Source: an uncultured Spirochaetales bacterium (GTDB lineage: Bacteria > Spirochaetota > Spirochaetia > Sphaerochaetales > Sphaerochaetaceae). From it: 64,000 nt of DNA. This document shows positions 55,385 through 55,723 of this stretch, piece by piece (position 1 is the stretch's first letter; every line of letters begins with the position of its first letter). The notes beneath the pieces were generated by a model, which ran no database searches, was not told where the DNA came from, and worked only from the letters and a program-made list of their open reading frames with translations. The position numbers and the translations under genes were made by a program. The stretch is taken from contig CALXOK010000003.1 in NCBI GenBank assembly GCA_944390025.1, positions 62,001 through 126,000 on the forward strand, written 5' to 3'.

Positions 55385-55723
55385 AGACGGAAGCATTATG
55401 ACTGTCTTTACTGCCACTATTAAACAGATTTTTATTTTTGGTAGTAATAGTAGTAATGCCTGTTGAATTGTTGAAAACTCTCTATTTTTTTCTCAAATAA
55501 AGAAAAAATGGAATGAAAACCCTGTTGAAAACCTGTTCATGAAAAATGATGAGATGTTGAAAACGTGCAAAACTTGTGAGAAAGGCTGAAGTTTTCAACA
55601 CAGGATGGACTTTTCAACAGCGATATCAACAGGTTTTGAACAGCTTTTGAACAGACTTTTCCACAAAAAAAAGCTTTCCTCACGAGGAAGAAAGCTTAAA
55701 AGGAGGTTGCTCTCTATTTTCAA
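55385..55723. other. Probable oriC: DnaA-trios and DnaA-box cluster
   Basis: AT-rich, gene-free stretch. An A/T-rich segment (55419-55440) is followed by five DnaA-trios, TAG-TAA-TAG-TAG-TAA at 55442-55456, a TGCC spacer, then box-like nonamers TGTTGAAAA at 55469, 55523 and 55555, TTTTCAACA at 55592 and 55611, ATATCAACA at 55624, TTTTGAACA at 55634 and 55645, TTTTCCACA at 55657-55665. Trios adjoining a DnaA box with the polarity seen here form the basal unwinding system described in Bacillus. The location between dnaN and dnaA supports oriC. Confidence 0.8.
55664..55697 (-). terminator. Terminator of the 91-aa exported protein gene
   Basis: A hairpin with AAGCTT outer arms and AGGAA/TTCCT inner arms around ACG, followed on the minus strand by a long T tract. 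It ends 27 nt after the stop and shields the DnaA boxes from transcription. Confidence 0.8.

Follow-up and report, generated by a model that had tools for sequence, protein, structure and literature searches.

Within the 64,000-nucleotide stretch of DNA that we analysed (the window), positions 55419–55665 very probably serve as oriC, the origin of chromosome replication, in a gut spirochaete of the Bullifex lineage; this origin would be opened by the basal unwinding system (BUS) through a shifted DnaA-box code, with a second DnaA-box element probably tuning DnaA. As an origin this is of a known kind; what is new is the changed box code together with the matching change in DnaA, and the most novel part is the second element, which lies beside murA. 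Relatives of the encoded DnaA, at 62–83% identity, are found in the genus that includes Bullifex porci and among Spirochaetales MAGs such as Candidatus Aphodenecus.

The site lies in the gap between dnaA and dnaN, and the surrounding gene order, gyrB-dnaA-[oriC]-dnaN-recF, is conserved in relatives, as checked by homology for dnaA, dnaN, recF, gyrB and yidC. With names assigned from sequence, gyrB (plus strand, 57920) is followed by dnaA (minus strand, 56355–57713), the gap, dnaN (minus strand, 53807–54907), recF and then an rnpA-yidC-jag block; dnaN, which encodes the sliding clamp and was identified from its open reading frame and homology in relatives, is the downstream border of oriC. The first-pass annotation had proposed an oriC with DnaA-trios here and had named cumulative GC skew as a check. 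Computed on the 158.8-kb contig, one of 41 in the assembly, the skew has its minimum near rather than far from the site, at window position 54469, and rises afterwards; on this one contig the skew switch thus stands beside dnaA and dnaN, about 1 kb from the boxes and trios. All 14 genus relatives that have the locus carry an array of five to nine boxes in the dnaA-dnaN gap, and trio-like repeats are found on the dnaN side in the 14, with trio sequences that differ between species and vary in strictness. Location, skew minimum, BUS geometry (below) and conservation in the 14 relatives all support the proposed origin.

The trio run itself, TAG-TAA-TAG-TAG-TAA on the plus strand at 55442–55456, holds letter for letter on direct reading, with its units at 55442–44 (TAG), 45–47 (TAA), 48–50 (TAG), 51–53 (TAG) and 54–56 (TAA). 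Read outward from the boxes, the trio strand is 3'-AAT-GAT-GAT-AAT-GAT-5', which bears out the polarity that had been claimed for a basal unwinding system, and the A/T-rich far side that had been described is likewise present: base composition marks 55419–55441 as a candidate unwinding element, and A+T reaches 90% over 55420–55439. A GC-rich spacer, TGCC (plus strand, 55457–55460, by direct reading), separates the trios from the proximal box. BUS modules have been defined by at least three 3'-NAN-5' trios, no more than 16 bp from a DnaA box and of the right polarity, with a published peak in box-to-trio distance of 10–13 bp (PMC8287927). Here five [G/A]AT trios of the right polarity stand 12 bp from the strong TTTTCAACA box at 55469–55477, a distance inside the published range that we count in favour of a BUS. 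The trios do adjoin box-like sites, as first claimed, but the proximal member of the tandem is degenerate and shares one base with the next box.

Since TAR repeats are simple sequence, the run could in principle be a chance trinucleotide microsatellite rather than a set of DnaA-trios. However, (TAR)5 occurs only here in the 64-kb window and is expected zero times (100 shuffles), and most relatives have repeats at the same place and with the same polarity in a different unit order (CTA/TTA/CTG), which drift would not give; we consider a microsatellite extremely improbable. Under a strict test for runs of [C/T]T[A/G] no more than 16 bp from a box, 10 of the 15 genus genomes have a run of at least four units, against a null mean of about 1.5, while in five of the 15 no strict run lies within 16 bp of a box, these having longer spacers or degenerate units. 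The variation in unit order and type among species suggests that the trio run is a maintained structure and not a copied repeat.

Opening of oriC by the known BUS mechanism is the most likely scenario, the unwinding being proposed by analogy with that mechanism (PMC6669920, PMC10721633). Domain IV of DnaA would bind the TTTTCAACA array, the box pair at 55461–55477 would direct an oligomer of ATP-DnaA to the trio strand (55442–55456), and capture of its bases would open the A/T-rich flank at 55419–55441 for helicase loading. The trio/BUS arrangement is itself of an ordinary, known type. It shares with that of Bacillus subtilis (PMC6669920, PMC8287927, PMC10721633) the tandem box, the short GC spacer, the 3'-[G/A]AT-5' trios and their polarity, the A/T-rich flank and the location between dnaA and dnaN; unlike there, the boxes are TTTTCAACA and not TTATCCACA, and the proximal box shares 1 bp with the one next to it.

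The array contains five copies of TTTTCAACA, two of TTTTGAACA and one of TTTTCCACA, and a motif search of it found no TTATCCACA. Nearest the trios, direct reading gives a weak box, AATTCAACA on the minus strand (plus-strand reading TGTTGAATT), at 55461–55469, sharing 1 bp with the TTTTCAACA box at 55469–55477 (minus strand). Motif searching placed further TTTTCAACA boxes at 55523–55531 and 55555–55563 on the minus strand and at 55592–55600 and 55611–55619 on the plus strand, followed, all on the plus strand, by TTTTGAACA at 55634–55642 and 55645–55653 and TTTTCCACA at 55657–55665; a weaker box, ATATCAACA, was read directly at 55623–55631 (plus strand). The 64-kb window holds 12 TGTTSAAAA sites against 2.4 expected, seven of them at oriC and four in a second cluster at 44.0–44.3 kb, which the first-pass annotation had not noted. 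One weak Rfam hit, far below its cutoff, overlaps the end of the oriC array.

The first-pass annotation had suggested an altered box preference in this lineage, and a comparison across the family supports this, as do the same shift at an independent locus, the murA-adjacent element, and a DnaA helix-turn-helix (HTH) that is altered throughout the genus. We compared sites in the oriC gaps that match TTNTNNACA, in which positions 3, 5 and 6 are free: 123 sites in the genus (15 Bullifex genomes) and 48 in 13 other family members. At position 6, the genus sites have A 107 times and C 12 times out of 123, whereas the 48 sites from the other family members have C 33 times and A 8 times. The genus thus departs from the canonical box TTWTNCACA, which has C at this position. 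Position 3 is mostly T in the genus (105 sites, with A at 14), compared to mostly A in the other family members (25 of the 48, with T at 13). Genome-wide, TTTTCAACA occurs at 62 sites versus 8 for a reversed control, and TTATCCACA at 12 versus 8; TTTTCAACA is also fairly common genome-wide in relatives that retain TTATCCACA at oriC. A literature search for TTTTCAACA as a DnaA box returned only unrelated sequence matches among the papers listed. In E. coli and M. tuberculosis, departures from TTATNCACA are reported to reduce affinity (PMC5043019).

These counts could also mean that the origin is correctly placed and the specificity of DnaA is relaxed rather than switched, with A or C tolerated at position 6 and boxes that drifted towards A/T in an AT-rich gap. 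That would fit the persistence of C at position 6, where 11 of the 12 C sites are TTTTCCACA, and the fact that the murA element begins with a TTTTCCACA box in 15 of 15 genus genomes. Drift sits less well with the near disappearance of TTATCCACA, which is equally AT-rich at position 3 and yet is down to 1 of the 123 genus sites. Moreover, the change at position 6 spans genomes both poor and rich in A+T (oriC GC 0.20 to 0.40), other AT-rich family members retain C there, and five to nine boxes per origin are retained though their flanks diverge. We regard relaxed specificity as possible but somewhat doubtful. A switch, in which the whole genus Bullifex would read TTTTCAACA in place of TTATCCACA as its DnaA word, is supported by the sequence comparisons; as judged from them, the double-stranded box code is shifted (T at position 3, mostly A at position 6), with no change in the single-stranded trio code. 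The former can apparently change while the latter stays. Outside the genus, a group of spirochaetes (L017, L030, L090–L096) has a DnaA that reads GGKNHTT, with Asp replaced by Asn at a DNA-reading position, and no exact TTATCCACA was seen in the two dnaA-dnaN gaps examined from this group (L047, L060); it is possibly a second lineage with altered boxes.

The DnaA of this genome (452 aa; identified from its open reading frame, alignment and model) has its HTH at residues 405–432, where F412-D413-R414-D415-H416-S417 stands against FGGRDHT in relatives. The alignment shows a one-residue deletion in the HTH turn, FGGRDHTT to F-DRDHST, in 15 of 15 Bullifex DnaAs; the genus form is F-[D/N]RDHST, and others have FGGRDHTT or an equally long variant. 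The deletion was absent from about 35 other DnaAs compared, mostly spirochaetal. Elsewhere in domain IV the genus has DARN (one DSRN) where most others have PRQ. In an AlphaFold model built from 30 sequences domain IV is confident, with helices at 405–412 and 416–432 joined by a three-residue turn, D413–D415; this model was used in place of a 14-sequence one, set aside with domain IV mostly at pLDDT <50. A Thr435-to-Ser change was rejected as a sufficient cause of the box change: one other genome (G036) also has Ser and yet keeps TTATCCACA.

The HTH-turn residue is likewise lacking in Thermotoga maritima DnaA (PMC10316083; PDB 2z4r), where FNRSH aligns to FDRDH, and that protein also reads a non-canonical box; T. 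maritima is an independent lineage, and its box, ACCTACCAC (PMC10316083), is unrelated in sequence to the Bullifex box. Epsilonproteobacterial origins (PMC5043019) share a lineage-wide change of box consensus, there class-wide and attributed to changes in DnaA domain IV, but in them T is invariant at position 5 (core TTCAC), whereas Bullifex has C changed to A at position 6 and has lost an HTH-turn residue. The HTH deletion may cause the box shift, a reading that draws on a single evolutionary event (n = 1, at the base of the genus) and the Thermotoga parallel; as deletion and shift each arose once at the base of one genus, their link is a correlation. To our knowledge, DnaA boxes are unusually stable across bacteria, and a clean natural switch would therefore be a good test system. 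With initiator and sites apparently switched together and sister genera unswitched, Bullifex would offer a natural system for testing how the recognition word of an essential initiator changes.

The second DnaA-box element (44006–44320, plus strand; motif search and relatives) is intergenic, with murA (minus strand, 44398–45678; open reading frame and relatives) on one side and a sigma-54-activator-like gene on the other. It lies 3' of murA, its constant neighbour, about 11 kb from oriC, and comprises seven boxes around an A/T-rich middle, starting at 44006(+), 44017(+), 44030(−), 44222(−), 44236(+), 44247(+) and 44312(−), among them two double boxes, each with 2 bp between its members, that lie 230 bp from each other. 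E. coli DnaA prefers double boxes with gaps of 2–3 bp (PMC11317965). In 15 of 15 genus genomes the element 3' of murA consists of two same-direction double boxes and flanking inverted boxes, with 2 bp inside each double box and, in most of the 15, 230–231 bp between them; in total the genus has 100 boxes at this place versus 1.16 expected. Beyond the genus, the same place holds TTATCCACA boxes, often as ACAAGTTATCCACA, elsewhere in the family and in three more families of the class, amounting to 37 boxes in 15 genomes versus 0.74 expected, 212–233 bp apart; nineteen further genomes have no boxes there, with 0.32 expected. The spacings cluster near 212, 222 and 231, in steps of roughly one helical turn (Rayleigh R about 0.7 at 10–10.5 bp, in a test that is not independent, the genomes being related); the double boxes are separated by some 20–22 helical turns. 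This position, together with the matched box shift, argues that the murA element is a real DnaA target.

The seven boxes around an A/T-rich middle, present throughout the 15 genus genomes, might suggest that the cluster at 44.0–44.3 kb is the true origin, or one half of a bipartite origin shared with 55.4 kb. However, a comparison of relatives found no conserved trios in it, and the GC-skew minimum is at 54.5 kb instead. Known bipartite origins flank dnaA closely, whereas 8–28 kb separate dnaA from the murA element where both are on one contig. An origin here is very unlikely. Somewhat less improbable, though still unlikely, is that the element controls transcription of murA or the neighbouring gene, with DnaA as regulator or roadblock, and is not a DnaA-control locus: the position 3' of murA is fixed, and other bacteria use DnaA both as a transcription factor and as a roadblock (PMC10950094). 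Against this, a place 3' of murA is no promoter position, and the gene beyond the element varies and can be 5 kb away. In the window, moreover, the element is inverted relative to the 14 relatives, between the same two neighbour genes and with every internal spacing kept, which argues for a self-contained module.

We favour a datA-like (ATP hydrolysis), DARS-like (reactivation) or titration locus, a function suggested by analogy, through which the murA element would probably tune DnaA availability or nucleotide state. It is a non-coding, conserved DnaA-box cluster of fixed spacing and, like E. coli datA, DARS1/DARS2 and the titration zone (PMC10950094, PMC12371093), stands near the origin; wide, fixed spacing between box groups is shared with datA/DARS. 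It differs from the E. coli loci in having two double boxes 212–233 bp apart, beside murA and 8–28 kb from dnaA, and in having no clear IHF site: IHF-like sites show a weak excess (18 versus 8–12 expected in each group). Rfam gave no match in the element, and the literature searched contained no mention of a DnaA-box element adjacent to murA. In spirochaetes, whose replication control has received little study, such an element would represent a DnaA-control locus close to the origin. Our tentative overall proposal is that the HTH deletion drove the rewriting of position 6 from C to A both through oriC and through an ancient, apparently undescribed spirochaete counterpart of datA/DARS beside murA.

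Genus-type boxes were also seen in a prophage region (L073 11783–11831, G000:C1), where four of them form two double boxes upstream of a terminase gene; the phage seems to carry the altered DnaA boxes of its host. Near oriC, an insertion of about 376 bp (55002–55377) lies between the trios and dnaN, bounded by imperfect terminal inverted repeats (55002–55043 and 55336–55377) and containing TTGCCCTTTCA repeats. It is single-copy in the genome and apparently absent from close relatives, in which the trio-dnaN distance is shorter. Between dnaA and oriC, a 91-aa open reading frame (55724–55999) is signal-peptide-like and has no Pfam match, and three TTAACTTATGACATAAG-like palindromic repeats upstream of it (56083–56262) are possible operators. 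Bordering the box array, a strong hairpin with a T-run on the minus strand (55670–55697, AAGCTTTCTTCC...GGAAAGCTTTTTTTT) is likely the terminator of this reading frame.
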